Below, piece by piece: positions 12,254 through 55,181 of a stretch of DNA of 55,621 nucleotides. The position numbers and the translations under genes were made by a program. Position 1 is the stretch's first letter, and the number at the start of each line of letters is the position of its first letter. Source of the stretch: a virus; the IMG/VR virus record IMGVR_UViG_3300042923_000252, positions 1 to 55,621 of that record. The stretch is one strand, 5' to 3'. Under the pieces are notes generated by a model that was given only the letters and a program-made list of their open reading frames with translations, had not been told where the DNA came from and did no database searches.

Positions 12254-12266
12254 GTCTCGAATCAAC
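12254..12266 (-). promoter_or_regulatory. 13-bp motif (stoperator-like) copy 1
   Basis: Exact GTTGATTCGAGAC on the minus strand, pointing with transcription, between the stop of the gene at 12288 and a hairpin. Confidence 0.75.
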
Positions 12267-12287
12267 TTAGGAAGCAAAAAAAGAGGC

Positions 12288-12854
12288 TTACTTCAGCTCG
12301 TACTTGCCAGACTTCTTGTTCTTGAAGGCAGGCGGGCACTGAGCACTCTTCTCGCGCTCCTGGCAGAACATCGCCTCCCAGTTGTCCTTCGCGAAGTGCT
12401 TGCGAGGACCGTGAGCACAGGTCGTCACCCCGAGGTCCGAACCGGCAGCCGGCGCAGCCTGGTTGTACTGGACCTGACCGTTCTGGAAGGACGGTTTGGC
12501 CTGAGCAGCCGGCGCGGCCTGAGTCTTCGGACCACCCTTGTACTGACCTCGGGTGTACTCCGCGGCCTGGGAGAAGAACTCGATGAGGCCCTTGTTCTTC
12601 ATGGCCAGGAGGAGATCCTGAGCGTTCTGCGCAGTCTCCTCGGCAGAGGCACCGTAGACGGTCGGGGTCAGCCACTCAGCGTCATAGCCGGCAGCAGCCT
12701 TCAGGGTCATGCCGATCTTGAAGGGGTTCGGGGCAGAAGCAACAACAGGCGGGTTGGTCACAGGCACCTCCGGTGCGGACGGCTGGGGCTCAGGCTGAGC
12801 AACTTCCCAGGGGCTCTTCTGCCCCCAGGGGTCGGTGGGGTCAAAGTCAGTCAC
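12288..12854 (-). CDS. Putative DNA-binding protein with zinc-ribbon C-terminus
   Basis: A 188-residue protein. The Pro-rich N-terminus (about 1-40) is followed by FKIGMTLKAAAGYDAEWLTP and a helical TAQNAQDLLLAMKNKGL. A linker of Ala, Pro and Gln leads to a C-terminal metal site (CAHG, FCQEREKSAQC). This domain order is common in replication regions of actinophages, sometimes annotated as a single-strand binding protein; I could not confirm that. GTG start preceded by AGGAGG and a promoter-like element at 12872-12900. Confidence 0.7.
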   Translation of the reverse strand: MTDFDPTDPWGQKSPWEVAQPEPQPSAPEVPVTNPPVVASAPNPFKIGMTLKAAAGYDAEWLTPTVYGASAEETAQNAQDLLLAMKNKGLIEFFSQAAEYTRGQYKGGPKTQAAPAAQAKPSFQNGQVQYNQAAPAAGSDLGVTTCAHGPRKHFAKDNWEAMFCQEREKSAQCPPAFKNKKSGKYELK

Positions 12855-12871
12855 GCTTACCTCCTACTTCC

Positions 12872-12901
12872 AGTGTGGCAGGGTTGCGGTCTCGAATCAA
12901 C
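12872..12901 (-). promoter_or_regulatory. Promoter overlapping 13-bp motif copy 2
   Basis: The exact motif GTTGATTCGAGAC (12889-12901) supplies TTGATT as -35. Seventeen bases later stands CACACT as -10 (12872-12877). The gene at 12854 starts about 18 bases further, with AGGAGG between. A repressor on the motif would cover the -35. Confidence 0.6.
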
Positions 12902-12908
12902 TACAGAG

Positions 12909-13277
12909 TCAGTGCTGTGGGTCACAATGCTTGCTGTACTTGCCGTGCTTGTAGTTGTAGTGGGCCGTCCCACTCGGAGCCCAGTGCCGGCCCTTGGCGT
13001 CACGGTCCGCTGTGTTCTCAGTGGGAGTACCAAGGAAGAGGTGGTCCGGGTTACAGCACTGTGGGACGTCGCAGGTGTGGCACACCTGAAGACCCTTGGG
13101 AACAGGACCACGCCACAGCATGTACGCCGCGACGTGAGTCCCTATGCCGACTCGAACGTTGCCACCAGGCTTGATGCGGCCATACTTCTTACCGGCCCTG
13201 GTGTCTATCCAGCACTCACCTGACTTGTCCAGTCGAGCAACAAGTCGCTCCTCCAACGGAGCCGCTACGTACGGCAT
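12909..13277 (-). CDS. HNH homing-type endonuclease
   Basis: A 122-residue HNH nuclease. CWI, then a CHTCDVPQCCNPDHLFLGT core and ENTADRDAKGR match the HNH_3 family of phage free-standing nucleases. Start at 13277 overlaps the RNR stop (ATGA), so it is tightly joined to the RNR gene. Such nucleases are often mobile and sit beside conserved genes. Confidence 0.9.
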   Translation of the reverse strand: MPYVAAPLEERLVARLDKSGECWIDTRAGKKYGRIKPGGNVRVGIGTHVAAYMLWRGPVPKGLQVCHTCDVPQCCNPDHLFLGTPTENTADRDAKGRHWAPSGTAHYNYKHGKYSKHCDPQH

Positions 13278-17954: not shown

Positions 17955-18577
17955 TACTTCCCGCCCCCGCTCTTCATACGGAACTGCACGAGTTCGGCAA
18001 GCATCACGTTGAAGACAATGGCCATCGCGTGATCCTCGGTCTTGTCACCGCAGAGGTACTGCATGAGATGCCGGAAGAGGCTTTCCTGAGCCCGCTCCAG
18101 CTCAGCCGGCGAGTTGGCAAGCTCGAAGTTCCGCTTCGAGTACTTCTGAGCGCCGCGGGTGAGGAGCTGAGCGAACCGGGTAAGGAACTGCTCCTCGTAG
18201 GGAACTCCCTGCTGGACCATCAGGAAGAAGTTGTCCTTCGTGGCCCCATCAGCGTCCCTAACCATCCCGCTTGCGTAGGTCTCGCGAGCCCCAGAGTCCT
18301 TGGTGACAAACCCCGAGTCTCTCGAATCAACCTTGACAGCAGGAGAAGAGGAAGACTGCTCAGCAGGCTTCGCACTCAGCTCGTCGTAGACGTGCTCGAA
18401 CTCCAGCTCAGAAGAATCGAACTGCCGAGTGTAACCCTCGTCCATGAGCACCCTCACCTCATATTCGGCTTCCGAGCCAATGGAGGTTACCTCCCCTCTA
18501 TTTCCGAGGTAGTTTTCGTATCCATCGTGGTTGTTCCTCACAACCACAACCCGGTCACCAGCCTCGAACTTGCTCAT
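17954..18577 (-). CDS. dATP/dGTP diphosphohydrolase-like protein with SH3-like head
   Basis: A 207-residue fusion. The N-terminus (about 1-62; FEAGDRVVVVRN, NRGEVTSIG, YEVRVLMDEGYTRQF) is an SH3/KOW-like barrel. After a Ser-rich linker, residues about 98-200 (FFLMVQQGVPYEEQFLTRFA, GAQKYSKRNF, ERAQESLFRHLMQYLCGDKTEDHAMAIVFN) match the DUF5664-type dATP/dGTP diphosphohydrolase group related to MazG; metal-binding Glu and Asp lie in the helices. It probably adjusts dNTP pools. The next upstream gene is a stand-alone copy of the head domain. A copy of the 13-bp motif lies inside the linker coding region. Confidence 0.75.
   Translation of the reverse strand: MSKFEAGDRVVVVRNNHDGYENYLGNRGEVTSIGSEAEYEVRVLMDEGYTRQFDSSELEFEHVYDELSAKPAEQSSSSPAVKVDSRDSGFVTKDSGARETYASGMVRDADGATKDNFFLMVQQGVPYEEQFLTRFAQLLTRGAQKYSKRNFELANSPAELERAQESLFRHLMQYLCGDKTEDHAMAIVFNVMLAELVQFRMKSGGGK
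18319..18331 (-). promoter_or_regulatory. 13-bp motif copy 3 (intragenic)
   Basis: GTTGATTCGAGAG on the minus strand, one mismatch at the last base, inside the diphosphohydrolase-like gene where it encodes V-D-S-R. Orientation agrees with transcription. Confidence 0.5.
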
Positions 18578-19457: not shown

Positions 19458-19701
19458 GGAAGCCGATCCCCTCCTCTCGCATGATCACTGACCAGGAGTC
19501 CTCCGAGATGTCACATGCGTGACAACACCACCGGTCCAACTCCGTGTTGACGGAAGCACTTGGTCTCGATTCAACGTGGAGGACACAAAAAATCTTCTGC
19601 CACCATCGAGACTCCGAGACCTCAACGCCGTAGTAGTGGTTAAGCACTTCCCCGATGGGAGGCTTAGGCGGGGTCGATCCGGACGAGGCTCCGCGTACCA
19701 T
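19291..19701 (-). CDS. DNA primase, zinc-finger half
   Basis: A 136-residue protein whose core (VLNHYYGVEV, W-x-K-x-FCVLHVESRPSASVN, WCCHACDISED, EGIGFREAIEWA) is the CHC2-type zinc domain of primase; ligands are Cys, His, Cys, Cys. The last part (from about SARFGGD onward, rich in Arg) is translated over the start of the Toprim gene and looks non-conserved. ATG at 19701 overlaps the upstream gene by 38 bases; GTG at 19647 begins closer to the conserved part and is a good alternative. The Cys-His core also contains motif copy 4. Confidence 0.8.
   Translation of the reverse strand: MVRGASSGSTPPKPPIGEVLNHYYGVEVSESRWWQKIFCVLHVESRPSASVNTELDRWCCHACDISEDSWSVIMREEGIGFREAIEWASARFGGDSEVLSEPVQGEPRRGIPDRPRFGRGGRQVASRVRRRFGDGS
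19563..19575 (-). promoter_or_regulatory. 13-bp motif copy 4 (intragenic)
   Basis: Exact GTTGAATCGAGAC on the minus strand inside the primase zinc domain, coding V-E-S-R. Because the HVESRPS protein motif is conserved in primases, this copy may be partly coincidental. Confidence 0.45.
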
Positions 19702-20235: not shown

Positions 20236-20521
20236 GGTCTCGATTCAACTTACGCTCCAGAAAAAGAAGCCGGTTCTCGTTGAAGCTGGCCTGGAGCTGA
20301 CCGAGGAATTCAACGAGCTTCATCTTCTGCCGTCTGAGGGGACCTTGGTCCAGTATCAGTGTCTCGAATCCACCTTGCAGGTAGCGAACGAGGACTTCCC
20401 CGAGGGTCTGAGTGTTCAGCCGGCGAGGGTTCGTGATCCTGAGGTGGAGGACCGCTCCGGCACTCGTGATGTCCCGCTGGAGTCCGAAGCCGTTGTGGTT
20501 CGTGCGCTTGTTCGTCTTCAT
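20222..20521 (-). CDS. Hypothetical protein, possibly leaderless
   Basis: A 99-residue basic protein: RTNHNGFGLQRDITSAGAVLHLRI, LNTQTLGEVLVRYLQGGFETLILD and LVEFLGQLQASFNENRLLFLERKL. ATG at 20521 lies about 7 bases after a -10 element (20528-20533), so the predicted transcript starts at or beside the ATG; no ribosome binding site is visible. Leaderless messages are common in actinomycetes. Motif copies 5 and 6 lie inside its coding region. Confidence 0.6.
   Translation of the reverse strand: MKTNKRTNHNGFGLQRDITSAGAVLHLRITNPRRLNTQTLGEVLVRYLQGGFETLILDQGPLRRQKMKLVEFLGQLQASFNENRLLFLERKLNRDRVSF
20237..20249 (-). promoter_or_regulatory. 13-bp motif copy 5 (intragenic)
   Basis: Exact GTTGAATCGAGAC on the minus strand at the 3' end of the gene at 20222-20521, coding L-N-R-D, just before the endonuclease gene start. 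Confidence 0.6.
20361..20373 (-). promoter_or_regulatory. 13-bp motif copy 6 (intragenic, one mismatch)
   Basis: GTGGATTCGAGAC on the minus strand inside the gene at 20222-20521. One mismatch to consensus, same orientation as transcription. Confidence 0.5.
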
Positions 20522-20527: not shown

Positions 20528-20558
20528 AGTGTGCACCCCGTGAAGGTCTCGAATCAAC
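20528..20558 (-). promoter_or_regulatory. Promoter overlapping 13-bp motif copy 7
   Basis: Exact motif GTTGATTCGAGAC (20546-20558) provides TTGATT as -35; CACACT as -10 follows after 18 bases (20528-20533). The predicted start site coincides with the ATG at 20521. Confidence 0.6.
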
Positions 20559-21831: not shown

Positions 21832-21844
21832 GTCTCGAATCAAC
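21832..21844 (-). promoter_or_regulatory. 13-bp motif copy 8
   Basis: Exact GTTGATTCGAGAC on the minus strand, between the stop of 21864-22280 and the hairpin before the helicase gene. Confidence 0.75.
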
Positions 21845-22766: not shown

Positions 22767-22779
22767 GTCTCGAATCAAC
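22767..22779 (-). promoter_or_regulatory. 13-bp motif copy 9
   Basis: Exact GTTGATTCGAGAC on the minus strand, between the hairpin at 22795-22819 and the ribosome binding site of 22507-22737. Here hairpin precedes motif, the reverse of the usual order. Confidence 0.75.
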
Positions 22780-22833: not shown

Positions 22834-22863
22834 AGTATGGCAGCTTTCTAGTCTCGAATCAAC
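22834..22863 (-). promoter_or_regulatory. Promoter overlapping 13-bp motif copy 10
   Basis: Exact motif GTTGATTCGAGAC (22851-22863) gives TTGATT as -35; CATACT stands 17 bases later (22834-22839). The stop codon TGA of the RecB/Cas4-like gene lies inside the motif. Confidence 0.65.
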
Positions 22864-23774: not shown

Positions 23775-24107
23775 TCATCCTCCGTACACCGTCACAAGAT
23801 CGAAGTACTTACTTCCGGGGAACCTGCTGTGTGGCTTCTGAACTCTCTCCCGTTCAACAACACAGTCACTCAGGTTCTTCCCCAACTCCCGCTCCAACCG
23901 GTCCAGTTCGGTTACGTCATCCTCGTTGACATCGTTCGTCATCACGATCATGAAGTACCGCTGAAACGGTTCTCCGAGAACCTCAGTGATCAAGAGGGCT
24001 GACGTCTCAACCCATGTCCGGGTTGTCTGGACCGTGCCCGTGTAGATCACTTTCAGTACGTCTACCCGCCCCGCCAGGACGTCTTGAGACGCAAGCAAAC
24101 GGACCAT
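23775..24107 (-). CDS. Hypothetical protein in its own transcription unit
   Basis: A 110-residue protein not recognised: VRLLASQDVLAGRVDVLKV, TSALLITEVLGEPFQRYFMIVMTN, DVTELDRLERELG. ATG at 24107 chosen because GGGGAGGGCCC stands before it; a GTG at 24179, directly after motif copy 11, would add 24 residues. Bounded by the repressor terminator upstream and its own terminator downstream, so it is regulated separately, next to the repressor: a possible immunity accessory gene. Confidence 0.65.
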   Translation of the reverse strand: MVRLLASQDVLAGRVDVLKVIYTGTVQTTRTWVETSALLITEVLGEPFQRYFMIVMTNDVNEDDVTELDRLERELGKNLSDCVVERERVQKPHSRFPGSKYFDLVTVYGG

Positions 24108-24187
24108 GGGCCCTCCCCGTGTCATCGGCGGACGTTGAAACTGTCCACCCGCCGTACGGAATGTACACACGTTCTTCACTCAACTAC

Positions 24188-24200
24188 ATCTCGAATCAAC
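24188..24200 (-). promoter_or_regulatory. 13-bp motif copy 11
   Basis: GTTGATTCGAGAT on the minus strand, one mismatch, between the repressor terminator and the gene 23775-24107. It probably controls that gene. Confidence 0.65.
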
Positions 24201-24257
24201 GTGACCATGACCACACAGTCACCAGTACAACCATTAGGGTTACCTAACTAAAACGAA

Positions 24258-24281
24258 AGACCCCCTGGTCACAGGGGGTCT
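24258..24281 (-). terminator. Terminator of the repressor gene
   Basis: AGACCCCCTG / CAGGGGGTCT, a perfect 10-bp stem with a GTCA-type 4-base loop; on the minus strand it is followed by TTCGTTTTAG. It insulates the repressor from the early genes. Confidence 0.9.
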
Positions 24282-24295
24282 CGCTGTATCGACGG

Positions 24296-24796
24296 TCAGT
24301 TGTTAGAGGTCGGAGGCAGCTCCAGCGCCCTCCGAAACCTCTCATCTGGGAAGGGAATCGCTTTCGGCCAGTCGATGACCCGGTTCCCGTCCTGGGGTGT
24401 CCGGGGCCTGTAGTACCACCCGTCGACAGTGTCCGGGTCGTAGCACAGCACCTCGTTGTGCTCTCTCAGCCGGCGCTCCCAGCGCTCCGCTAGAAGAAGC
24501 TGCGCCTTGCTCAGGGTGTCGTCCCCGAGCCGTCTCCGTAGCCAGACCTTCAGTGCCTTGGCGCTGTACCTGTTGTGGTGCCCGGTCCCCTCCTTCGGGG
24601 CCCAGATCGACCAACGCGTTGCCAGGGCTTCGTTGACCTGCTTGGAGATGGGCTTCCGGAACAAGCCCAACTTGGACAGCCTCTTGTTCACTGCCTGAAC
24701 GGTGACACCGTACTCCTTGGCGATCTCCTTGTCGGAGACGTCCCGGTGATACAGCTTGACTAGCTCATGATCAGGCGGTAGCAGAGTGGTGGGCAT
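24296..24796 (-). CDS. Probable immunity repressor (HTH protein)
   Basis: A 166-residue protein with an N-terminal helix-turn-helix at about 11-42: ELVKLYHRDVSDKEIAKEYG then VTVQAVNKRLSKLG. The remainder is basic and aromatic (WLRRRLGDD, RWERRLREHNEVL), with no known effector domain. It is first in the leftward direction, has its own terminator and faces an operator-rich control region, just as the L5-type repressor gene does. It is the best candidate to bind the 13-bp GTTGAWWCGAGAC sites. Two motif variants (24897, 24990) lie upstream, so autoregulation is likely. It could instead be a Cro-like or early activator protein. Confidence 0.7.
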   Translation of the reverse strand: MPTTLLPPDHELVKLYHRDVSDKEIAKEYGVTVQAVNKRLSKLGLFRKPISKQVNEALATRWSIWAPKEGTGHHNRYSAKALKVWLRRRLGDDTLSKAQLLLAERWERRLREHNEVLCYDPDTVDGWYYRPRTPQDGNRVIDWPKAIPFPDERFRRALELPPTSNN

Positions 24797-24896
24797 GTCA
24801 TGTCCTTCGTGGCGGTGTTACATGCAGTGGCCCTTTCGTCACAAGGCCGGCAGTCCCCGTGACACGGTCACCATAGTCAGTAACGGTTCTGAGAGT

Positions 24897-24909
24897 CTCT
24901 CGTTTCAAC
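24897..24909 (-). promoter_or_regulatory. 13-bp motif copy 12, upstream of repressor
   Basis: GTTGAAACGAGAG on the minus strand, 100 bp before the repressor start. With GTTACT 18 bases downstream it could be the -35 of a weak promoter for the repressor. Confidence 0.5.
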
Positions 24910-24989
24910 ATGTGATGTACGTCTCACTTCAATACGGAGTCTTGCGTTCCCTTTGAGCTACCCCCATAGGCATCACACGTCACAATCTG

Positions 24990-25002
24990 GTCTCGATGCA
25001 AC
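24990..25002 (-). promoter_or_regulatory. 13-bp motif copy 13
   Basis: GTTGCATCGAGAC on the minus strand, one mismatch. No clear -10 follows. Confidence 0.5.
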
Positions 25003-25083
25003 GTTGTGGCCCCACCGTAAACCACCTAGTAACCTTTGGCCAACGCACTTATTCAGATCAAGACACCCAACCCTGTGATCTGG

Positions 25084-25096
25084 GTCTCACTTCAAC
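25084..25096 (-). promoter_or_regulatory. 13-bp motif copy 14
   Basis: GTTGAAGTGAGAC on the minus strand, two mismatches. It lies in the segment that resembles the left end (TGTGATCTGGG at 25074-25084). Confidence 0.45.
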
Positions 25097-25171
25097 ATCC
25101 TGTGTCACAAACCCTAGGCGAGTGACACCGACGTCTATAGTAGAAGAGAAAAGAGAAAATACTTAGTAGTT

Positions 25172-25194
25172 ACTCGGTTCCTGAAGAACCGAGT
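25172..25194. repeat. Inverted repeat before the rightward promoter
   Basis: ACTCGGTTC and GAACCGAGT form perfect 9-bp arms with a CTGAA loop, ending where the -35 begins. It may be an activator or repressor site. Confidence 0.6.
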
Positions 25195-25223
25195 TGACAC
25201 GAGACTCTCTTAGTAGTTATACT
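25193..25223 (+). promoter_or_regulatory. Rightward promoter with overlapping motif copy 15
   Basis: TTGACA (25194-25199), 18-base spacer, TATACT (25218-25223): the best sigma-70-type promoter in the window. The motif variant GTTGACACGAGAC (25193-25205) covers the -35. In L5 the operator overlaps the -35 TTGACA of the early promoter in the same way. The -10 lies in the loop of a 10-bp inverted repeat (25205-25214 / 25227-25236). Predicted start near 25,230. Confidence 0.8.
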
Positions 25224-25236
25224 AGAACTAAGAGAG
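25205..25236. repeat. Inverted repeat around the -10
   Basis: CTCTCTTAGT and ACTAAGAGAG form perfect 10-bp arms; the 12-base centre contains the -10 TATACT. A dimeric regulator bound here would block open-complex formation. Confidence 0.65.
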
Positions 25237-25253
25237 AAGTTAGTAAGTAAGTA

Positions 25254-25277
25254 GTGAGTCTCCTTAAAGAGACTCAC
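25254..25277 (+). terminator. Internal hairpin of the leader
   Basis: GTGAGTCTC / GAGACTCAC, a perfect 9-bp stem with a CTTAAA loop. The tail AAGTTTCCTT is only weakly U-rich, so it may be a structural or pausing element. Confidence 0.55.
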
Positions 25278-25316
25278 CCTAAGTTTCCTTCTTGTTGATC
25301 TCCCTGTTGAGTAAGT

Positions 25317-25342
25317 AGCCGACCCTTGAAGGTCGGCTTTTT
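25317..25342 (+). terminator. Intrinsic terminator before late genes
   Basis: AGCCGACC / GGTCGGCT, a perfect 8-bp stem with a CTTGAA loop and a following T-run (25338-25342). It stands about 100 bp after the main rightward promoter and before all late genes, so late expression must bypass it or start elsewhere. Confidence 0.88.
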
Positions 25343-25354
25343 AGTTCCAGGTTG

Positions 25355-25367
25355 ATTGATTCGAGAT
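25355..25367 (+). promoter_or_regulatory. 13-bp motif copy 16
   Basis: ATTGATTCGAGAT on the plus strand, two mismatches at the ends, between the intrinsic terminator and the hairpin before the HNH gene. Confidence 0.5.
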
Positions 25368-25381
25368 CCAAGAGGGTAGTT

Positions 25382-25416
25382 GGCCCCGGCTGCTAGACCA
25401 GTATCCAGCCGGGGCC
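25382..25416 (+). terminator. Hairpin before HNH gene
   Basis: GGCCCCGGCTG / CAGCCGGGGCC, a perfect 11-bp stem with a 13-base loop, between motif copy 16 and the GGAGG of the HNH gene: the usual motif, hairpin, ribosome-binding-site order. Confidence 0.65.
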
Positions 25417-25437
25417 CAAGACTTCTTGGAGGTGGTC

Positions 25438-25755
25438 ATGCCCAGGGCGAAGAGTGTATGTCTCACGGCCGGCTGCCCCTCCAAGACTTTCCGCGACGGC
25501 CGGTGCCGAGAGCACCAAGTTCGGAAACCCTGGCAGAACACATCGGCCAGGAACCAGAGCCGGCCCGGTAACTGGCCCTCCATCAGGGCCAGGGTGCTTG
25601 CTCGGGACAGGTTCGCTTGTCAAAGCTGCGGAAAGAGATCCGAGCTTGAGGTGGACCACATTGTCCCGGTGGCCCGGGGAGGCTCCTGGGAGTTGGACAA
25701 CCTCTGGACCTTGTGCAAACCGTGCCACGGTGCCAAGACGAGGAAGTTCGGCTAA
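25438..25755 (+). CDS. HNH endonuclease (first late gene)
   Basis: A 105-residue HNH nuclease: CLTAGC and a second Cys/His pair near the N-terminus, then CQSCGKRSELEVDHIVPVARGGS, DNLWTLCKPCHGAKTRK. HNH proteins next to terminase genes in siphoviruses often assist terminase cleavage. Here it is about 1.9 kb before terminase, with tRNAs and small genes between. ATG at 25438 chosen for the GGAGG before it; an earlier ATG lies four codons upstream. Confidence 0.93.
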   Translation: MPRAKSVCLTAGCPSKTFRDGRCREHQVRKPWQNTSARNQSRPGNWPSIRARVLARDRFACQSCGKRSELEVDHIVPVARGGSWELDNLWTLCKPCHGAKTRKFG

Positions 25756-25832
25756 TTACTCCTCACCGTCCGGGCCCTGCCCGCACTGGTGGGGCTATTG
25801 CAACCCACCTCGTTCCTTGTGGGCGAGGTTTT

Positions 25833-25906
25833 CCCTCGGTAGCTCAGTTGGTTAGAGCGCCGCCCTCATAAGGCGGAGGTCGCTGGTTCAAGTCCAGCCT
25901 GCGGGA
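25833..25906 (+). tRNA. tRNA with CAT anticodon (Met or Ile2)
   Basis: A 74-base cloverleaf: D-arm GCTC/GAGC with AGTTGGTTA loop, anticodon stem CCGCC/GGCGG with loop CTCATAA (anticodon CAT at 25867-25869), T-arm GCTGG/CCAGC with TTCAAGT loop. The acceptor stem CCCTCGG / CTGCGGG has one T-C mismatch at pair 4-69 and a G-T pair. Discriminator A; CCA not encoded. Elongator Met and lysidine-modified Ile cannot be told apart by eye. Confidence 0.85.
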
Positions 25907-25976
25907 CGAGGCAGAGTGATGGGGTGAAGAGCCTCCCCCGGTGGTGAGCCGCGGTGTGCTAGCAGCACTTTGCCCT

Positions 25977-26068
25977 TCCTTGGTAGCTCAAAGGTAGAGC
26001 ACTCGGGGCCCCGCCGCTTCGGCGGCAACAGACGAGAGTGGTTGCGGGTTCGAATCCCGTCCAAGGAA
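25977..26068 (+). tRNA. tRNA-like gene with expanded anticodon arm
   Basis: A 92-base tRNA-like sequence. Acceptor TCCTTGG / CCAAGGA is perfect (7 bp), the D-stem GCTC/GAGC is perfect, and the T-arm GCGGG-TTCGAAT-CCCGT is good. The anticodon arm is abnormal: CTCG and CGAG, 27 bases apart, enclose an extra hairpin GCCGC-TTCG-GCGGC, so about 18 bases more than normal and no clear anticodon. A long variable arm does not explain it well. Pseudogene, insertion or decoy tRNA are possible. Confidence 0.6.
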
Positions 26069-26072
26069 CGAA

Positions 26073-26145
26073 GGGGAGGCTGGCTGCTCGCCGGCACGAG
26101 TAAAAGCACCGCTGGTGCCACAGGGTGCAAGTCCCTGACTCCCTA
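26073..26145 (+). other. Degenerate tRNA-like remnant
   Basis: Six of seven acceptor pairs (GGGGAG.. with CTCCCT) and a T-arm-like CAGGG-TGCAAGT-CCCTG are visible, with a hairpin GCACC-GCT-GGTGC in the middle, but no anticodon stem and a T-loop with G in place of T55. Directly follows the tRNA-like gene. Probably a decayed copy; not counted as a gene. Confidence 0.25.
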
Positions 26146-26174
26146 CAACTTCATTCACCCAACAGGGGGTTGGC

Positions 26175-26255
26175 GTGGCTACAGAGGAAGAGATGAGAGA
26201 TCCGGCCTTCTGCTGGATCTGCATGAGAAAGTGTGGTTCCCAACCACACAAGTAG
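26175..26255 (+). CDS. 26-residue Cys-rich peptide (tentative)
   Basis: Short frame ATEEEMRDPAFCWICMRKCG with a basic end. It has CWIC plus another Cys, and AGGGGG stands before the GTG; an internal ATG is also possible. It ends nine bases before the next gene, whose GGAGC overlaps its end. Could be a leader peptide or metal-binding micro-protein. Confidence 0.35.
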   Translation: MATEEEMRDPAFCWICMRKCGSQPHK

Positions 26256-26557: not shown

Positions 26558-26945
26558 CGGCCTGGTCGTCCAGGCCATGCCCTCCGGGGCAGAGTTGATC
26601 CGGCTGGAGGACGCTTCGCCTGTTGTGAAGTGGTCCACAGGTCTGGTCGAACTGAACGAGGTTGAGCGCTGGAAGATCGCTCTCAAGGCTACTGAACTGG
26701 CCGGCACCCCCTACTCCTTCCTGGACTACGTCTCAATCGCCCTGAAGCGCCTTGGCGTGCCCTCACGGTTGATTCGAGACCGCGTCCGGGACTCGGGGCA
26801 CCTCATCTGCTCACAGCTCGTCGTGGAGGCGTACAGACGCGCCGGCATCGAGCTGTTCGGACCCGACACCTTCCCCGGCGACTACACGCCCGGGGACCTC
26901 TGGAAGCTGCTCAAGGAAATGGAAGCCGATGCACGAGTTCGATGA
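26427..26945 (+). CDS. NlpC/P60-like papain-fold hydrolase
   Basis: A 172-residue enzyme of the permuted papain-like group (YiiX/NlpC-P60 type). HALVYVG (His about 37) and HLICSQLVVEAYRRAG (Cys about 128) are the catalytic pair; KATELAGTPYSFLDYV resembles the substrate-groove part. Likely cleaves peptide or amide bonds in peptidoglycan, or a related amide. Its location before terminase is not that of a lysin, so a virion or early-late wall role is possible. GAGGAG precedes the ATG. It contains motif copy 17. Confidence 0.75.
   Translation: MTEPKPGDFGLTKIKGLAGAFVNFGQWFVGDFAPVQHALVYVGNGLVVQAMPSGAELIRLEDASPVVKWSTGLVELNEVERWKIALKATELAGTPYSFLDYVSIALKRLGVPSRLIRDRVRDSGHLICSQLVVEAYRRAGIELFGPDTFPGDYTPGDLWKLLKEMEADARVR
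26769..26781 (+). promoter_or_regulatory. 13-bp motif copy 17 (intragenic)
   Basis: Exact GTTGATTCGAGAC on the plus strand inside the hydrolase gene, coding L-I-R-D in the gene frame. Orientation agrees with rightward transcription. Confidence 0.65.
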
Positions 26946-27090: not shown

Positions 27091-27383
27091 TGGATGTCTA
27101 CCGGGAGAGAGCACACCTGCTCTCGCACCTTGCAGCTATCTACCCGTCTCGACTCATCCGCGGTGCTGACCCGGAAGAGCCTGACTGGCCAGTGTTGTTC
27201 ATTGACTTCGGATTCCCGGATGGACAGGCCACTTGGCACATTTCGCCTGAGGATCTGGACCTCTTCGAGGACGTCAGTGACGAGGAAGCCGACTGGGCTA
27301 TCTGGGATGGCCACTCCACTGAGGAGAAGTACGAGCGGCTGGACAAGGCAACCAAGCAAGTCTACTGGGGGTACGAACTCTGA
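27090..27383 (+). CDS. Hypothetical protein (WDGHSTEEKYERL)
   Basis: A 97-residue acidic protein: VLFIDFGFPDGQATWHISPEDLDLFEDV and AIWDGHSTEEKYERL. The WDGHxTEEKYxRL pattern recurs in small Streptomyces-phage and actinomycete proteins of unknown function. One-base overlaps (TGATG) at both ends. Confidence 0.75.
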   Translation: MDVYRERAHLLSHLAAIYPSRLIRGADPEEPDWPVLFIDFGFPDGQATWHISPEDLDLFEDVSDEEADWAIWDGHSTEEKYERLDKATKQVYWGYEL

Positions 27384-39000: not shown

Positions 39001-40632
39001 GCTCCCGGTGGTGGCTCTTCTGGCAAGAAAAAGAAGAAGGCCATGGGTGGTGTTCTTCCCGGTTACACACCGGGTGTCGACGTCCACCGGTTCTTCAGCC
39101 CTACGGCCGGCACGCTGGACCTGTCTGGTGGAGAGGCAGTCATGCGTCCCGAGTGGACCGCGGCTGTTGGTCCTCAGAAAGTCAACGAGCTGAACCAGAT
39201 CGCCCGTACCAAGGGCGTTCATGGTGTCCGTGATGCAATGCAGTTCGCCAACGGCGGCATCATCGAGAAGCTCGGTCTTCAGGGAATCATCGACACAGCA
39301 CGGGGATTCAACCTCGGTGTCGACGTCATCGGTGCGGCCCGGACCATGGACATGGATTCCTCGTCCCGCCCTCTCGGGGGCGATGTCCAGAGAGGCATCA
39401 TCGGTTCGGGCACGGACAGTGGGCACTTCATTGGTAGTGACACCTCCGTTCGTCTGGACACTCTCCGGAACTTCATGTCCCGGGATGCCTGGACGCTTCT
39501 GCGGAGGCTCCCGTCCAACGGAGCCAGTCAGGTTCTGGGCACCATCGGTGGTGCCCTTGCCCCGGTTGCCGGTGAGCACTTCTGGGATGACGTCTGGAAG
39601 GGCTCAGGGAACATCGTGGAGCGAGGAAATACCTTCCTCCAGCACATGTTCTCTCCGAGTTCCATCACGAAGATAATCACCAACTCACTGGACAATATCT
39701 GGGACACCATCACCGGGTTCTTCAACTCAGCGACGTCGTTCGCAACCGACCCGTACGGCACCATCAAGGATGCCCTGTCCGGTGTCTGGGAGATGACCAA
39801 GGAATCCTATGCCGGCGTCACCAGCACGGTGCAGGGCCTGAAGGAAATCTGGCAGAGCCCGAAGGACTATGCCGAGCAGGTTGTCAGCGATATCTATTCC
39901 ACGGCGAAGGACTCCCTTCCCAACATGAAGGGTCTTTTCGACTTCTCCAAGGACGACAAGCTGACGGCCAAGAAGCCCAACTTCGATCAGGTCATAGAGA
40001 GCGGGGGGCCGGGTACGGCTAGAGCCCTTACCTGGGCTCGTACTCAGCACGGCAAGCCTTATCAGTGGGGCGGAAACGGTAATCCCTCGTGGGACTGTTC
40101 AGGTTTCATGAGTGCTATCGAGTCCATGATTCGAGGGGAAAAGCCTCACCGTCGTTGGGCTACTGGGGCCTTCTCCGGTAGCCATGCTCCTTCCGGATGG
40201 GTACGCGGCCTAAAGGCACCCTTCATGATCGGTATTACCAATAAGGGTGTGGGCCACACAGCCGGAACTCTCAATGGCGTCAACGTTGAATCGAGAGGTG
40301 GAGCCGGCGTCATCGTCGGTCCAGGTGCACGAGGTTGGAACAACAGCCTCTTCACCGACACCTACGGCTTCAAGCCTTCCATTCCCGCGGCATACGCCAC
40401 TGGGACGCTCTCTGCGTCTCCTGGCCTCGCTCTGGTGGGTGAGAAGGGTCCTGAGCTTGTCGACTTCGGAAAGGGCGGTCAGCGGGTCTTCAACGACCGG
40501 GACACAGAGGCTCTTTTGGGTGGTGGCCGGCCGGTCTCTGTGACTGTCAACGAGGCCAAGCACGAGACAACGCCTCAGGCAATTCTCCGAGGCTTCCAGT
40601 GGATTGACGCCATGTACGGCAGTCGACTCTAA
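36064..40632 (+). CDS. Tape measure protein with C-terminal NlpC/P60 domain
   Basis: A 1,522-residue protein setting tail length. Residues about 30-270 are Lys/Arg/Glu/Ala-rich coiled coil; about 630-660 is a hydrophobic segment (MAAAALPFIIALGLL). Residues about 715-970 form a repeated ladder with units like DLNGKNLSRLRDQI and NLNGAGLGTVRKQ. Near the end (about 1320-1460) an NlpC/P60-like papain-fold peptidase is visible: WDCSGF with Cys1345 and GHTAGTLNG with His1398. It could open the wall at DNA injection. Motif copy 19 lies inside that domain. Confidence 0.95.
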   Translation: MATTGSGRGPIKVGSGYIDVFPKINQKQLREAKAQLEKQMGASGKKAGKALSDGISTQLANIPKKVAQASQKAQKELQRGAQDSKKVLKRIEQEITREYGKEAGKRFREAAELEKKKAKLLQNTSAETRRALQATVRGEQQAARDTARSWETAERERLRMIRERTVAAEKAAREEAAAHRRAQQQMREELRRTLAEARTARLADLRGQMDAHRDQVRALRAQLLDYRRQMQDHSRAVGRGLTDLRTGWRRQGEAIERLGTNITETGRLVTMNLLAPLGAVSTMLSTIGVQSADMRILGQMGLSAAGVSKKSSASEMRKIQEYAINTPFSIDTMHEYQMKIIRSIAGNDKEWYKKSTRGEAANRAAGKTTDIIMAIGDTMARAGNLDPEMFKRAMYAVDRIMDMDKAPTRNINQLVQATGIPAGELARMFGFSSAGDFWKQVGTPVAKGGGISGQDMINNLLMGWDPNYFVKGKNGKLKIDPKTGQPIVNSNDHSTAGGSAGFGERMTSATISGRISQIKERAQYELGSLFAEEDPKTGEYKYTGLGEAIMGKAQGKDKNGNTIYEGGLLQKVQELGGDQKGNVTTLLKTFFSSIGTFVDQIQWFSDWLNAHPQVKEVFANLLKMAAAALPFIIALGLLTKTFGKVNKILGAALTPLAAVFKGVRGATRTGRQVRAGMQSRNEGGSFRDGYRARRTELRDGDDRGPLTRTRDRVTGRNSNLDGLRGQIRDTEDAIRQAEDGITDLQRQIREVNSVSIRQLVDRFAGSGDDSLQGAAQTARQQVGQTTREVNQLNGQGLNQVSGEVSDLQDKVRSLTEKVRDSKAAFGNLNDQKLTQLKVTVDGAEGTVTDLKNKVDNTALSVGDLNGKNLSRLRDQIQNTIKTAGDLDEKIKGVRSRVTNLNGAGLGTVRKQFNQLNSAANEVYKTVGTTKSGVNGRITTLNGRSLKSIISAVKDLKDALDGADGKADNLNDSLNDISKHAPGGGSSGKKKKKAMGGVLPGYTPGVDVHRFFSPTAGTLDLSGGEAVMRPEWTAAVGPQKVNELNQIARTKGVHGVRDAMQFANGGIIEKLGLQGIIDTARGFNLGVDVIGAARTMDMDSSSRPLGGDVQRGIIGSGTDSGHFIGSDTSVRLDTLRNFMSRDAWTLLRRLPSNGASQVLGTIGGALAPVAGEHFWDDVWKGSGNIVERGNTFLQHMFSPSSITKIITNSLDNIWDTITGFFNSATSFATDPYGTIKDALSGVWEMTKESYAGVTSTVQGLKEIWQSPKDYAEQVVSDIYSTAKDSLPNMKGLFDFSKDDKLTAKKPNFDQVIESGGPGTARALTWARTQHGKPYQWGGNGNPSWDCSGFMSAIESMIRGEKPHRRWATGAFSGSHAPSGWVRGLKAPFMIGITNKGVGHTAGTLNGVNVESRGGAGVIVGPGARGWNNSLFTDTYGFKPSIPAAYATGTLSASPGLALVGEKGPELVDFGKGGQRVFNDRDTEALLGGGRPVSVTVNEAKHETTPQAILRGFQWIDAMYGSRL
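40285..40297 (+). promoter_or_regulatory. 13-bp motif copy 19 (intragenic)
   Basis: GTTGAATCGAGAG on the plus strand near the end of the tape measure gene, one mismatch, coding V-E-S-R. Confidence 0.45.
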
Positions 40633-49155: not shown

Positions 49156-49273
49156 TCTTACCCCCCGTTTCGGTCTTCCACTTACCATCCGACCACTTGC
49201 GCACTAACCCGGAGTACCGGCCCTGTACGTAGCGGGAAGGCACACCCCTTTGAGGCATTTCAAGAGGGCTCAC
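49148..49273 (-). CDS. 41-residue basic protein
   Basis: A small gene: SPLEMPQRGVPSRYVQGRYS, then GLVRKWSDGKWKTETGG. GTG start overlaps the stop of the ATPase gene (GTGA). Basic, with aromatic residues; function unknown. Confidence 0.55.
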   Translation of the reverse strand: MSPLEMPQRGVPSRYVQGRYSGLVRKWSDGKWKTETGGKNA

Positions 49274-50586
49274 AGCCACCCTCCCCCCGCTAGAGCTAGC
49301 TCAGGTTCCGGAGCAACGGGCGCCACCACTACCGGCGCCACTACGGCCGGCTCAGGTTCGGGAGTCTCTGCCTCTTGCTCAGCCGGCTGGATACGCCGGT
49401 AAATGTCGGGACGCCTTCCGCGTCCCGAGGCAGTCTGCCCCTTGACAACTTCCACATCATCCATGGATTCGACCGCAGAGCGGAGACTTGCTGCCGTTGC
49501 TCGCATTCCAAGAGCCCTGAGCATGAGGCTAGACGTAGCCTCCCCCTCATACCGGTCCAGAATCTCCCGGACTAGTTCGGGCAGGCTCTTAACGGCTCGC
49601 CCCTGAGACGACGTAACGTCATCCCTCACAAGTTTCTCAACACTTCGCATGCTGTACTGGACGAATGACCATGCCGCATTTACAGCGTCACGGCTGATAG
49701 TCGTACGTCGTTCCGTAGCGGTGAGCACAGCAGCAACCCGAACGATTTGCTCGGGAGTCCGCTCGATATAGCATCGAAGGTATTCCGGCATATCTGCCAA
49801 CTTGGCAAGGAACATGCCGCGGAGTTCATCAAACCTACGGCCGGCATCCTTGCTCAGGGACATACGCCGCGGACTACGCCGGGCCCAATCGTACGCCTCG
49901 GAAAGTTCCGGTACCTCAGGAAGTACTTCCCTGTGGTTGTACGGCAGTACCTTAGAGCCTTCCACCAACACAGGCAAGAGCCGGTTGAAACTCCCGCCCT
50001 TTGCGTCCCGCGGCTTGACGTATTCCGACCACTCACCCGGTGTGATGTGGGCATGGAATCCAAGCCTAGGCTCGTCAACCGTCATGCTCACTTTTGTAGT
50101 GGTGTGCCGAATGGTCACTCCGTCCCAGCAGGACCGAAGCTTGGATGCGAAAGTGGGGCACCGGTTCTGTCGTTTCAGGTTTTCCGACCACTCCTCATCC
50201 ACCACGATAAGTCGTGTGTCGGTGCCTGCCTCGGTACCCGTTGTCTCCTCCTGCCGCTCATACAGGAGCTGCGTGAGGGAGGGACCGGAGGACACACCTC
50301 CTTCCGTCCGGGCACTCAGGAAAGAGCCTATGGCAGGCTTTAGAATGCCTTCTGCCACACGCTTAGCCGTGCCCTTACGGCCGATGGCACTGCCCCCAAC
50401 CAACACGGTCCAGACGACTACGGGCCGGCCGTTGTCCATCCGGACATGACCGTTGATTGCAGTCGACCACATAGCCATCATGGCGGCGTAAACGCCTACC
50501 GGGTCCGCCTCAGTGTGAGGTTCGGCAAGTGCTACAGCGTCGCCTAGCGGACCGTACCTCATGCCCTCAAATGCTTCGAGACTCAC
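49270..50586 (-). CDS. DUF3987-like ATPase
   Basis: A 438-residue RecA/DnaB-like ATPase. The N-terminal part matches DUF3987 proteins: YAAMMAMWSTAINGHVRM, VLVGGSAIGRKGTAKR (Walker A with Arg in GRKGTA, about 65-80), LIVVDEEWSENL (Walker B, about 125), GFHAHITPGEW. A winged-helix-like region near 330-395 is followed by a Pro/Val/Ala-rich tail. Such proteins occur with phage and plasmid primases. This second helicase-like gene is far from the replication cluster, so it may serve another process, e.g. late replication or defence. GTG start. Confidence 0.8.
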   Translation of the reverse strand: MSLEAFEGMRYGPLGDAVALAEPHTEADPVGVYAAMMAMWSTAINGHVRMDNGRPVVVWTVLVGGSAIGRKGTAKRVAEGILKPAIGSFLSARTEGGVSSGPSLTQLLYERQEETTGTEAGTDTRLIVVDEEWSENLKRQNRCPTFASKLRSCWDGVTIRHTTTKVSMTVDEPRLGFHAHITPGEWSEYVKPRDAKGGSFNRLLPVLVEGSKVLPYNHREVLPEVPELSEAYDWARRSPRRMSLSKDAGRRFDELRGMFLAKLADMPEYLRCYIERTPEQIVRVAAVLTATERRTTISRDAVNAAWSFVQYSMRSVEKLVRDDVTSSQGRAVKSLPELVREILDRYEGEATSSLMLRALGMRATAASLRSAVESMDDVEVVKGQTASGRGRRPDIYRRIQPAEQEAETPEPEPAVVAPVVVAPVAPEPELALAGGGWL

Positions 50587-51701: not shown

Positions 51702-51738
51702 CGGCCCCCGTTTCCGGGGGCCGTAGTCTCGTTTCAAC
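51702..51738 (-). promoter_or_regulatory. 13-bp motif copy 21 with hairpin
   Basis: GTTGAAACGAGAC on the minus strand (51726-51738), then hairpin CGGCCCCCG-TTTC-CGGGGGCCG (51702-51723), then the ribosome binding site of 51489-51686. Nearly identical to the module at 53435-53470. Confidence 0.8.
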
Positions 51739-52438: not shown

Positions 52439-52440
52439 GG

Positions 52441-52764: not shown

Positions 52765-52805
52765 TGTCGTATCTTTCTGCTCGTGCCGATATGGTCAATG
52801 CGGCA

Positions 52806-52828: not shown

Positions 52829-52842
52829 CACCTCCATTCGCC

Positions 52843-53004: not shown

Positions 53005-53007
53005 TGC

Positions 53008-53418: not shown

Positions 53419-53434
53419 TGCTTTGCCTCCTGCC

Positions 53435-53470
53435 GGCCCCCGTTTCCGGGGGCCCTAGTCTCGATTCAAC
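53435..53470 (-). promoter_or_regulatory. 13-bp motif copy 22 with hairpin
   Basis: Exact GTTGAATCGAGAC on the minus strand (53458-53470), then GGCCCCCG-TTTC-CGGGGGCC (53435-53454), then AGGAGGCAAAGCA and ATG. Almost the same sequence as the module at 51702-51738. Confidence 0.8.
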
Positions 53471-53484
53471 CGTGTGACTATGCG

Positions 53485-53667
53485 TCAGCCGTAGTAATAC
53501 CGGGAGCGGAACACCGAAAGTGCCTCCCGTTCGCTGACAATCCCAAGGGCCCGCATGTGGTGCTGAGCCTTAGCGGCCCAATGTGTGGGCCAGTCGGCTA
53601 CGTCCCTGTAGGCCACGACGTCGTTGACGTCCACACCGACCAACCATGCGATGAAACCTGCGTTCAC
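53485..53667 (-). CDS. Small hypothetical protein
   Basis: A 60-residue protein: GFIAWLVGVDVNDVVAYRDV, AKAQHHMRALGIVSEREALS. Ends in SRYYYG. The 4-base overlap with the upstream gene suggests coupling. Unknown. Confidence 0.68.
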   Translation of the reverse strand: MNAGFIAWLVGVDVNDVVAYRDVADWPTHWAAKAQHHMRALGIVSEREALSVFRSRYYYG

Positions 53668-53849
53668 TTGCCTTCCACCCTTTCCATCATGCGCACGTCT
53701 ATTTCCGCCCCGTAAAAGTTCATGAGCACAGCCGCAGCGTGCCTTACGTGGTCGGGAGTGTCCCCGTGAGTAAGGATGCTGTCCATTTGGCGCCGCGCCT
53801 CATACAGGGCATCCATGGTGCAGGTGTTCAGTGCTTGAATGCGCCTCAC
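53664..53849 (-). CDS. Small helical protein
   Basis: A 61-residue protein: RRIQALNTCTMDALYEARRQ, DHVRHAAAVLMNFYGAEIDV. GTG at 53849 overlaps the TGA of a 23-codon gene (GTGA). Unknown. Confidence 0.65.
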   Translation of the reverse strand: MRRIQALNTCTMDALYEARRQMDSILTHGDTPDHVRHAAAVLMNFYGAEIDVRMMERVEGK

Positions 53850-53917
53850 TTGTTCTCCCCCTTGCACTTATGCGGGAACGTCGTCATGGTGCCCTTGCCC
53901 TTAGAACAGACCAGCAT
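53846..53917 (-). CDS. 23-residue basic peptide
   Basis: Very small frame LVCSKGKGTMTTFPHKCKGE with two cysteines. Coupled at both ends: its ATG overlaps the upstream TAA (TAATG) and its TGA overlaps the downstream GTG. That double coupling is the only support; it may be a real mini-protein or a coupling spacer. Confidence 0.45.
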   Translation of the reverse strand: MLVCSKGKGTMTTFPHKCKGENK

Positions 53918-54195
53918 TACTTCCCCTTGGCCACAAACTTGTAAGGGCCACTGCCCCCGTTGCGGAGCATGAGCCGGCCGTTCTTACTCCACCGGGTCTC
54001 GTAACCCTCATACAGGGCAGTGAAGACGTCCGCATACTCGGCATACGCCTCAGCGTGGAATGCGTCCCATTCCGCGGTTTCGCTCACCGTGTCCGGGGTG
54101 TGGTGCTCGATGATGTGCCGTGCCGGCATGCTCAGTGCCTGTATCCCACTGAGGTACGTCACGGCCATGATTCCTGCGATGATCCAAGCAAGCAT
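53917..54195 (-). CDS. Membrane-anchored hypothetical protein
   Basis: A 92-residue protein with one N-terminal membrane helix (LAWIIAGIMAVTYLSGIQAL) and a His/acidic outer part (ARHIIEHHTPDTVSETAEW, YAEYADVFTALYEGYE). ATG at 54195 follows GGAAGGGTGAGC, right after motif copy 23. Unknown. Confidence 0.7.
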   Translation of the reverse strand: MLAWIIAGIMAVTYLSGIQALSMPARHIIEHHTPDTVSETAEWDAFHAEAYAEYADVFTALYEGYETRWSKNGRLMLRNGGSGPYKFVAKGK

Positions 54196-54210
54196 GATGC
54201 TCACCCTTCC

Positions 54211-54223
54211 GTCTCGATTCAAC
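54211..54223 (-). promoter_or_regulatory. 13-bp motif copy 23
   Basis: Exact GTTGAATCGAGAC on the minus strand, immediately before the ribosome binding site of 53917-54195; no hairpin. Preceded by CGCCTACA, as at copy 24. Confidence 0.75.
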
Positions 54224-54285
54224 TGTAGGCGGAAACAAGAGGGCGCACAGCACGTTGTCTGTGCACCCGATGATCCTTACCTACG

Positions 54286-54438
54286 TTAGTCTGTCATGTT
54301 GTCAAGCCACTCACGCCAAGGCATCCTGTCAATGGTGAAATGACCCATGGACCCTTCAATGTCCCGAGAATGCAAGGCAATTCCATGGTTGGCTGCCTGG
54401 GTAACGATGAACCACTTGTCTTCCGGCTCTTCCATCAT
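54286..54438 (-). CDS. 50-residue hypothetical protein
   Basis: A small gene with AGGAGGA before two tandem ATG: EEPEDKWFIVTQAANHGIAL, SMGHFTIDRMPWREWLDNM. Ends shortly before motif copy 23. Unknown. Confidence 0.65.
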   Translation of the reverse strand: MMEEPEDKWFIVTQAANHGIALHSRDIEGSMGHFTIDRMPWREWLDNMTD

Positions 54439-54443
54439 TCCTC

Positions 54444-54695
54444 CTAGCGGACGGTTTCCCTAACCGCGTCTTCGAACGTTCGGGGGTGCAGAAGTTCCCC
54501 GCCCCTACGGACATTGTAGAAAGGAGGGTTGCACCAGTCTTCCCCCCGCGGGTAGGTGAAACCCAGGATGCTCCTGCACCCCTCTTGCTTGAAAAGGAAC
54601 CACCACTCGTTTGGGTGGCTGTACGTCGTTCCTTCAGAGATCTGATAGACGACGTAGGTCACACCGTCGACTGTGAACTGATCACCCTTGTTCAT
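54444..54695 (-). CDS. Rightmost gene, hypothetical protein
   Basis: An 83-residue protein: KGDQFTVDGVTYVVYQISEG, EWWFLFKQEGCRSILGFTYP, ELLHPRTFEDAVRETV. Start ATG at 54695 directly abuts motif copy 24; the only purine tract (GGGAG) lies on the far side of the motif. Unknown. Confidence 0.7.
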   Translation of the reverse strand: MNKGDQFTVDGVTYVVYQISEGTTYSHPNEWWFLFKQEGCRSILGFTYPRGEDWCNPPFYNVRRGGELLHPRTFEDAVRETVR

Positions 54696-54708
54696 GTCTC
54701 GATTCAAC
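54696..54708 (-). promoter_or_regulatory. 13-bp motif copy 24, abutting a start codon
   Basis: Exact GTTGAATCGAGAC on the minus strand; its last base touches the ATG at 54693-54695. Occupation would block both transcription and, in RNA, nothing; the position is the tightest to any gene. Confidence 0.75.
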
Positions 54709-54836
54709 TCCCTGTGTAGGCGACAGTAAGGGGGCACCCGGACCCTGCGAGGGGGCCGGCTACCCGATACCGCTTACCTACTTGGCTAGCCTTGATTGTG
54801 GACTAGGGCCCGCTAGCCGGCCCTACCCTCTCATGT

Positions 54837-54854
54837 CGGGTGACGTATCACCCG
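54837..54854. repeat. Palindrome CGGGTGA-CGTA-TCACCCG
   Basis: A perfect 7-bp inverted repeat with a CGTA centre, itself nearly self-complementary, making an 18-bp palindrome. Possible dimeric regulator site. Confidence 0.55.
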
Positions 54855-55168
54855 CGGGGAATGTTCTTACGTATGGACGTTTGATCTGTTGGCTTGCCTA
54901 GTGTTCGCCATGCCGGCAACTACACGACATGCGACAGACTGTGTCTGCCAGGTTACCCCATTTTGAAACCCCTAGATCAAAGCTCCCGTAGCTCTCTAGG
55001 GACTATCGCGGTATACGGCGCGTCATTCTTCCTACTGACTAGGTCTTACTGGCCTGTAGATCTTTAGCACGCTCTTTAGTTGACTGTGGAACGGATGCTT
55101 CCTTGGTACTAGGCCCCTTGTCGGGGGCCGTTCCTTCCGGGCACACCACTATGACAACACAGGTGAGG

Positions 55169-55181
55169 GTCTCGATTCAAC
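55169..55181 (-). promoter_or_regulatory. 13-bp motif copy 25
   Basis: Exact GTTGAATCGAGAC on the minus strand, 470 bp upstream of the right-arm genes. No good -10 at 17-18 bases, so it may control a non-canonical promoter for the whole right arm. Confidence 0.65.

Follow-up and report, generated by a model that had tools for sequence, protein, structure and literature searches.

We identified a genome-wide set of oriented 13-bp sites, of the kind known as stoperators, together with the gene of their predicted immunity repressor, in a single virus record, IMGVR_UViG_3300042923_000252 (55,621 nt; "the window" is this whole record). By sequence and structural model, the repressor is homologous to the L5-family repressor of mycobacteriophages over both of its DNA-binding domains, and the sites change with the repressor from phage to phage. 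That the system is a diverged branch of the L5-type repressor-stoperator system, not an independent invention, is well supported. The original prediction, made from the letters of the window, had proposed a genome-wide stoperator-like system in a Streptomyces phage with the 24296-24796 protein as repressor; all of this stands, and the nearest named phage in the searches run is Streptomyces phage Ibantik (host S. lividans). Its further suggestion of an independent repression system does not hold. Papers are cited below by PMC number.

Oriented 13-bp sites recur through the genome

The motif GTTGAWWCGAGAC is present in 16 exact copies (seven GTTGATTCGAGAC, seven GTTGAATCGAGAC and two GTTGAAACGAGAC), and this recount agrees with the numbers first given. 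With up to two mismatches we found 28 copies, compared to a mean of 4.53 (standard deviation 2.32, largest 11) in 100 dinucleotide shuffles. A weight matrix derived from the 16 exact sites yielded 24 sites above 14 bits (strong sites), compared to a mean of 0.22 and a largest value of 2 in 60 shuffles.

All 24 strong sites are oriented with transcription on a block map set by hand. Three of these calls (24897, 24990 and 25193) fall in the divergent repressor region (24.8-25.4 kb), where the block boundary is partly circular; outside that region, 21 of 21 strong sites follow transcription. The orientation bias described earlier survives a formal scan. When orientation was assigned automatically at a lower cut-off, 19 of 27 window sites ran with transcription, two ran against it (27146 and 50570, both weak and within genes) and six were undecided, four of them in the divergent region and two at the right end. 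The earlier statement that every copy between 12,254 and 55,181 follows local transcription is correct for the strong sites; an additional site lies outside that range at 6980, and the hit at 27146, on the minus strand of a plus-strand gene and with two mismatches, is an exception to the strand rule and probably a chance match. Most copies were also said to lie between genes, and we found 19 of the 24 strong sites to be mainly intergenic, compared to an intergenic share of 14.6% for the window by our own gene calls.

Automatic assignment across 14 phages or contigs (window included) gave 213 sites, 158 of them intergenic: 152 with transcription, 20 against and 41 undecided. Fifteen of the antisense hits are within genes, some with just one mismatch, and the other five are in the region of the rightward promoter P_R, where the gene finder had called a doubtful minus-strand gene.

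The repressor and the sites resemble those of the L5 family

The predicted repressor is 62% identical to Ibantik gp55, annotated 'immunity repressor', and matches PHROG families 357 and 3929, which the repressors of Bxb1, First and R4 also match. A PDB search with the single protein sequence found no relative; profiles matched 7r6r, the DNA-bound TipsytheTRex repressor (E 1.3e-8 and 6.8e-9). With hhalign, the values were 1.4e-18 versus six cluster A-type repressors and 2.8e-12 versus the R4/phiHau3 repressors. The search of genome contigs did not find the repressor. A predicted model based on 12 sequences (predicted local distance difference test score, pLDDT, 83) aligned to 7r6r over 155 of 166 residues (Z 14.3, root-mean-square deviation 3.1), the next match reaching only Z 6.0, and Foldseek gave E 1.3e-5 and a template modeling score of 0.71 to 7r6r. 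This model replaced a poor first one based on four sequences (pLDDT 70, template modeling score 0.32 to 7r6r).

The sites had been described as unrelated in sequence to the L5 site; this is contradicted by Bxb1, whose sites, read with transcription, are CTTGA[CT][AT]CGTAAC (de novo, refined). GTTGATTCGAGAC and Bxb1 CTTGATTCGTAAC differ at only three of 13 positions (1, 10 and 11), with GTTGA in register with CTTGA. The probability of at least 10 of 13 matches by chance is about 1.3e-4 in one register and 1.8e-3 when 14 registers and orientations are allowed for. In cluster A, published sites have TCAAG at their end, with positions 1 and 9-13 invariant and positions 2-8 correlating with immune specificity (PMC5559632); hence, read with transcription, their CTTGA is in register with GTTGA here. 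The same de novo procedure with refinement gave CTTGACAT[TC]CACC for First and CTTGACAA[TC][AT]GAC for Rhodococcus phage Yogi, and the latter agrees with the published CA consensus TGTCTATTGTCAAG after reverse complementation (PMC13313380).

The sites change with the repressor

The first comparison set comprised Ibantik and three related genomes (G001, G002 and G003), with reciprocal-best-hit proteins on average 62-79% identical. Counting a site as matched if a relative has one no more than 25 bp from the orthologous position, eight of the 28 window sites have a match in every one of the four relatives and 20 have a match in one or more; 25355 is a further orthologous match, in G001 and G002. 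Sites are kept at orthologous places, and oriented, in these relatives. A window/G001 conservation estimate (97% in sites versus 74% and 66% in the flanks) was biased, its pairs having been chosen by motif match, and was not used. The conserved 24-base element behind P_R recovered ten new records (G004-G013), nine of which have a homologous repressor (45-63% identical).

Where the genomes share a site, its sequence is GTTGWYACGAGA or nearly so in G003 and Ibantik, and GTTGAWWCGAGA or nearly so in the window, G001 and G002. De novo searches near the repressor gave GTTGAYAAGAGA (G006, G010), GTTGAYATGCGA (G011), GTTGACWTGCGA (G012) and GTTGMANTGAGA (G004, G013), the G004 motif being one of four tied top motifs and chosen by resemblance. 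Sites in G005, G007 and G008 are GTTGATTCGAGAC by a pattern scan that assumed GTTGNNNCGAGAC; a G010 site is GTTGATAAGAGAG and a G012 site is GTTGACATGCGAC. The site just behind the repressor reads GTTGATTCGAGAT in the window, G001 and G002, GTTGTTACGAGAT in Ibantik and G003, GTTGATGAGAGAT in G006 and G010, GTTGATATGCGAT in G011, GTTGTTTTGCGAC in G012 and GTTGATGTGAGAT in G004. Across the 14 phages or contigs, GTTG hardly changes, nor do positions 9, 11 and 12, and positions 5-8 and 10 vary by lineage. Orthologous places switch site class together with the genome, and within a phage the 3' half is as conserved as the 5' half. The sites change with the repressor from phage to phage.

A predicted operator overlaps the early lytic promoter

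An operator appears to overlap the predicted early lytic promoter P_R: by sequence, P_R reads TTGACA-18-TATACT at 25194-25223, and the operator covers its -35. GTTGACA is kept in 13 of the 14 P_R promoters compared (window included; G009 ends inside the leader), and in the same 13 promoters positions 8-11 follow the phage's own site class. Hexamers resembling a -10 stand at a spacing of 17-18 in 15 of 88 sites in five phages, compared to about 0.8 expected (the count includes orthologs); the window contributes three of its 24 sites. In Bxb1, 7 of 32 sites have such a hexamer.

The sites flanking the repressor gene deviate from the motif in a conserved way. Of the 14 phages examined, ten have a site behind the repressor, with T as its position 13 in nine of them, and 13 have a site about 100 bp ahead of the repressor, with G at that position in nine. 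These deviant sites are probably tuned weak sites.

A leader (25254-25338, plus strand) follows P_R, and G001-G008, G010-G013 and Ibantik each have a counterpart in this position; G009 holds its 3' part only. By eye it forms one to three hairpins, for example GTGAGTCTC-CTTAAA-GAGACTCAC, and a terminator-like hairpin as well. It includes a near-invariant element, CCTTCTTGTT(N)GATCTCCCTGTTGA, at 25287-25310, with a perfect hairpin before it in 14 of 14 and after it in 13 of 14 (not G013); the stems differ yet stay complementary. In an Rfam search of 24000-26200, two tRNAs alone reached the gathering score, and no family was found for the leader. The leader could be a small RNA, an attenuator or an antitermination site. 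Immediately ahead of the TTGAC of P_R, 10 of the 14 phages have an inverted repeat with 8-bp arms whose sequence varies between phages (25173-25193, plus strand, in the window); a second regulator might use it as its operator, or leftward transcripts might fold there into a hairpin.

Proposed mechanism and alternatives

We consider it very probable that an L5-type repressor binds the approximately 25 oriented sites, blocks early promoters and stops elongation elsewhere. This mechanism carries over, by analogy, the behavior of the L5 repressor known from the literature. The 7r6r repressor is monomeric and has two DNA-binding domains, of which the helix-turn-helix (HTH) is the first that polymerase meets (PMC9283540). 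The window's repressor would bind the 13-bp sites as a monomer, with the HTH on the upstream half GTTGA and the Stoperator domain on the downstream half. At sites that contain a -35 (P_R at 25193 and a few early-operon promoters), initiation would be blocked; at the other, mostly intergenic sites, repressor on the DNA would halt RNA polymerase during elongation and in this way keep the prophage silent downstream of the repressor gene. Read-through from the repressor transcript into the leftward replication genes would be stopped at 24188 and at later gene junctions. The deviant sites near the repressor gene would probably bind more weakly, letting the repressor be expressed and self-regulated.

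A more specific, and doubtful, proposal is that the upstream half is locked because GTTGACA also serves as the -35 in P_R and in other early promoters. Specificity would then evolve mainly via the center and the downstream half, which the Stoperator domain would read; residues 65, 67 and 71 would set base 8, and a basic residue 33 would go with C at position 6. We found that residues 65, 67 and 71 separate the base-8 classes over 14 repressors (T71 with C, E71 with A, D71 with T). Two alignments pair residue 71 with L5 D78 and a third pairs it with K75, and D78 and K75 both contact bases in 7r6r; in our model, residues 64-73 (including 71) have a pLDDT below 50. In G003, Ibantik, G012 and First, whose repressors have K or R at residue 33 (L5 R45), position 6 of the site is mostly C; Bxb1 has P at this residue and C or T at position 6. 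Many other alignment columns also separate the smaller site classes. Weighing against the code, the K75A and D78A substitutions have no phenotype in an L5-type repressor according to PMC9283540, whose authors expect the region to vary freely. Hence, these sequence correlations offer a lead, not proof. If true, repressor and sites could be read as a two-part code, of which 14 natural variants exist.

Several observations count against the L5-type mechanism or its details. In G001 the promoter is kept (TTGACT-18-TAGACT) with the operator half lost. Hexamers resembling a -10 are also found at a spacing of 27-28 (7 of 88 sites), and none of 20 First sites has one at 17-18. Five of the 24 strong sites are within genes, and an upstream stop codon lies within 40 bp before the site for only 9 of 22 window sites (by the same measure, 17 of 29 in Bxb1 and 11 of 19 in First). 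No site was found just behind the repressor in G005, G007, G008 and G013 among the 14 examined. Many of the compared sites are orthologous, so they are not independent. The 7r6r base contacts that matter in L5 are R45, W50, D104 and R108 (PMC9283540), which are V33, K38, A98 and L102 here by alignment; therefore, recognition details must differ from L5. The repressor tree (16 rows, First left out) is not resolved, and three class changes suffice on it; hence, the residue-site correlations may be ancestry.

Some of these points would suit an arrangement in which the repressor binds the sites and those outside promoters are no roadblocks, serving as decoys or compaction points that set the level of free repressor. 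Only a minority of sites has a -10 (three of 24 in the window), fewer than half closely follow a stop codon, and PMC6550527 leaves open the roles of the many cluster A sites in superinfection. Decoys need no orientation, yet the strong sites outside the divergent region all follow transcription, and reversed L5 sites lose repression of elongation (PMC9283540, citing earlier work); we consider decoys improbable. Promoter activity without repressor binding, with TTGAxx as the -35 of many internal promoters, would account for P_R and for the 15 sites with a well-spaced hexamer. Yet 73 of 88 sites are without such a -10, and a -35 needs no 3' half, whereas the 3' half is conserved within each phage and changes with the repressor between phages, which makes this explanation very improbable.

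The start-associated sequences of cluster K mycobacteriophages are tags a few bases before start codons. A translation-linked tag of that type would share with the sites their 13-bp length, asymmetry, orientation and mostly intergenic placement. The distance to the next start codon is a median of 72 bp for window sites, with three of 24 within 12 bp, and the sites have no Shine-Dalgarno-like content and change together with the repressor, so that a tag of this type has next to no likelihood. Partition, packaging or recombination sites unrelated to the repressor would also be repeated through a genome; however, the phage has an integrase, and the sites track both transcription direction and repressor class, leaving these functions an equally slight chance, although no search aimed at ParB-like proteins was made. 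The L5-type repressor acting through oriented stoperators is the reading that we prefer.

Genome layout and coordinates

Genes run leftward up to about 24.8 kb (replication), except for the integrase and two neighbors. Those between about 25.4 and 48.9 kb (virion, lysis) run rightward, and the remainder run leftward almost to the right end. The repressor gene is located at the divide between the leftward and rightward blocks. One gene separates it from a RecB-like exonuclease gene, an arrangement shared with Ibantik and with First, a cluster A-like phage. Genes were called with our own gene finder, and agreement by eye with the deposited Ibantik annotation was good over the first 40 calls printed. 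Two tRNA genes lie behind P_R (25833-25906 and 25977-26068, plus strand), where Ibantik has tRNA-Met and tRNA-Gly. The right-hand leftward block includes a gene for a DUF3987 protein (Pfam PF13148, E 3.7e-16; 49270-50586, minus strand).

Table 1. Sites, predicted promoter elements and key genes of the window.
Feature	Position	Strand	Comparison or basis
Serine-type integrase (temperate phage)	3443..4927	+	phrog_95 integrase, E 2.2e-78; Ibantik gp5 annotated integrase (S-int)
Site GTTGATTCGAGCC	6980..6992	-	Same in G001
Site, exact	12254..12266	-	Orthologous place occupied in G001, G002, G003, Ibantik
Site, exact; -10-like CACACT 17 bp on	12889..12901	-	CATACT at matching sites of G001, G002, G003, Ibantik
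Site GTTGATTCGAGAG, in gene	18319..18331	-	Site within 15 bp of predicted place in all four compared relatives
Site, exact	19563..19575	-	No ortholog found in four compared relatives
Site, exact, gene junction	20237..20249	-	Present in 4/4 compared relatives
Site GTGGATTCGAGAC, in gene	20361..20373	-	Same in G001
Site, exact	20546..20558	-	Present in 4/4 compared relatives
Site, exact	21832..21844	-	Present in 3/4 compared relatives
Site, exact	22767..22779	-	Present in 4/4 compared relatives
Site, exact, at stop of RecB-like exonuclease	22851..22863	-	-10-like CATACT 17 bp on in 5/5 phages
Site GTTGATTCGAGAT, between repressor stop and early operon	24188..24200	-	T at position 13 conserved
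Immunity repressor (predicted), 166 aa, N-terminal HTH + Stoperator domain, L5/TipsytheTRex family	24296..24796	-	Homology and model
Site GTTGAAACGAGAG, 100 bp before repressor start	24897..24909	-	G at position 13 conserved
Site GTTGCATCGAGAC, in repressor leader	24990..25002	-	Motif scan
Weak site GTTGAAGTGAGAC, in repressor leader	25084..25096	-	Also in G001
Candidate -10 TACTAT of leftward repressor promoter, without good -35	25137..25142	-	Suggested by eye; Ibantik TATAAT there
Operator GTTGACACGAGAC; its TTGACA is the predicted -35 of P_R	25193..25205	+	GTTGACA in 13/14 promoters (window included)
Predicted -10 of P_R, TATACT	25218..25223	+	Spacing 18 from -35; from sequence
Weak site ATTGATTCGAGAT, behind leader terminator	25355..25367	+	GTTGATTCGAGAT at same place in G001, G002
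Site, exact, in gene	26768..26780	+	In G001, G002
Site, exact, 7 bp past stop codon	35270..35282	+	In G001, G002
Site GTTGAATCGAGAG, in tape measure gene	40285..40297	+	Motif scan
Site, exact, 5 bp past stop codon	46771..46783	+	In G001
Site, exact	51726..51738	-	Motif scan
Site, exact	53458..53470	-	Motif scan and ortholog comparison
Site, exact	54211..54223	-	Motif scan and ortholog comparison
Site, exact	54696..54708	-	Motif scan
Site, exact, upstream of right-hand leftward genes	55169..55181	-	Motif scan

Comparison with known systems

A repressor-stoperator system has been described for R4 and its relatives (PMC10276819); therefore, stoperators as a kind are not new for Streptomyces phages. 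Among 'stoperator' papers, this is the only one that names Streptomyces phages in its title, and no prior report of the exact sites described here was found in the literature searched, subscription papers being outside that scope. Apparently new here is the DNA address of the sites, which changes with the repressor among these phages. The R4 and phiHau3 repressors are homologous to that of the window and are annotated 'similar to L5 gp71'; their HTH differs. The site comparison used the de novo candidate site of phiHau3, TGTGTTAGACTGA, which differs from the window sites. In phiHau3 (L015), TGTGTTAGACTGA is found, for example, at 8373, 26127, 31654, 47353 and 47891, often just past stop codons and mostly with transcription, and is a candidate R4-group stoperator.

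Other repeats won the whole-genome de novo motif searches of Ibantik, Ponzi, Success, phiHau3 and R4. A sense-strand intergenic search performed better, and gave nothing convincing for R4. Few-copy motifs were seen in Ponzi (L013; AACTTGAAWCTGT at 11765, 18344, 19423 and 48038, four exact copies) and Success (L014; GTTGCCTCCTGGG at 6363, 8127, 13825, 20422 and 21303, five exact, one on the wrong strand). The repressors of these two phages are distant, and their motifs are possible, weak stoperators to which we give no weight, as matrix refinement drifted (Ponzi, 5 with and 15 against transcription; Success, 5 with and 8 against).

Ibantik is the closest named case, with its annotated immunity repressor and with sites at orthologous places. 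It differs in its sites, GTTGWYACGAGAC, often followed by AT, and in recognition-helix residue 33, which is K in Ibantik and V in the window.

These results place the L5 switch of mycobacteriophages in a diverse lineage of Streptomyces phages, in which 14 phages or contigs show at least five classes of site at orthologous places. This provides natural data on how about 25 genome-wide sites change together with one repressor and on how a monomeric repressor splits reading between two domains. It also yields predicted immunity groups and repressible promoters in Streptomyces hosts.

Cluster A phages (L5, Bxb1, TipsytheTRex; Gordonia A15; Rhodococcus CA) share with the window a homologous two-domain repressor encoded near a RecB-like gene, and some 20-30 asymmetric 13-bp sites that run with transcription, are mostly intergenic and include an operator over a -35. 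In both, the TTGA half is mostly kept and the other half is variable, so the published cluster A rule of an invariant and a variable half holds here in outline; in cluster A, the C-terminal region of the repressor correlates with immunity phenotype (PMC6550527). Unlike cluster A, position 1 (their 13) is G here and C there, position 5 (their 9) varies in Ibantik, G003, G004 and G013, the repressor lies mid-genome with structural genes read away behind P_R, and this lineage has several new 3' halves. The L5 (A2) site CTTGACAKCCACC and the L5 contacts R45, W50, D104 and R108 are not matched by the window, which has GTTGAWWCGAGAC. Hence, the two systems are of the same kind with different specificity.

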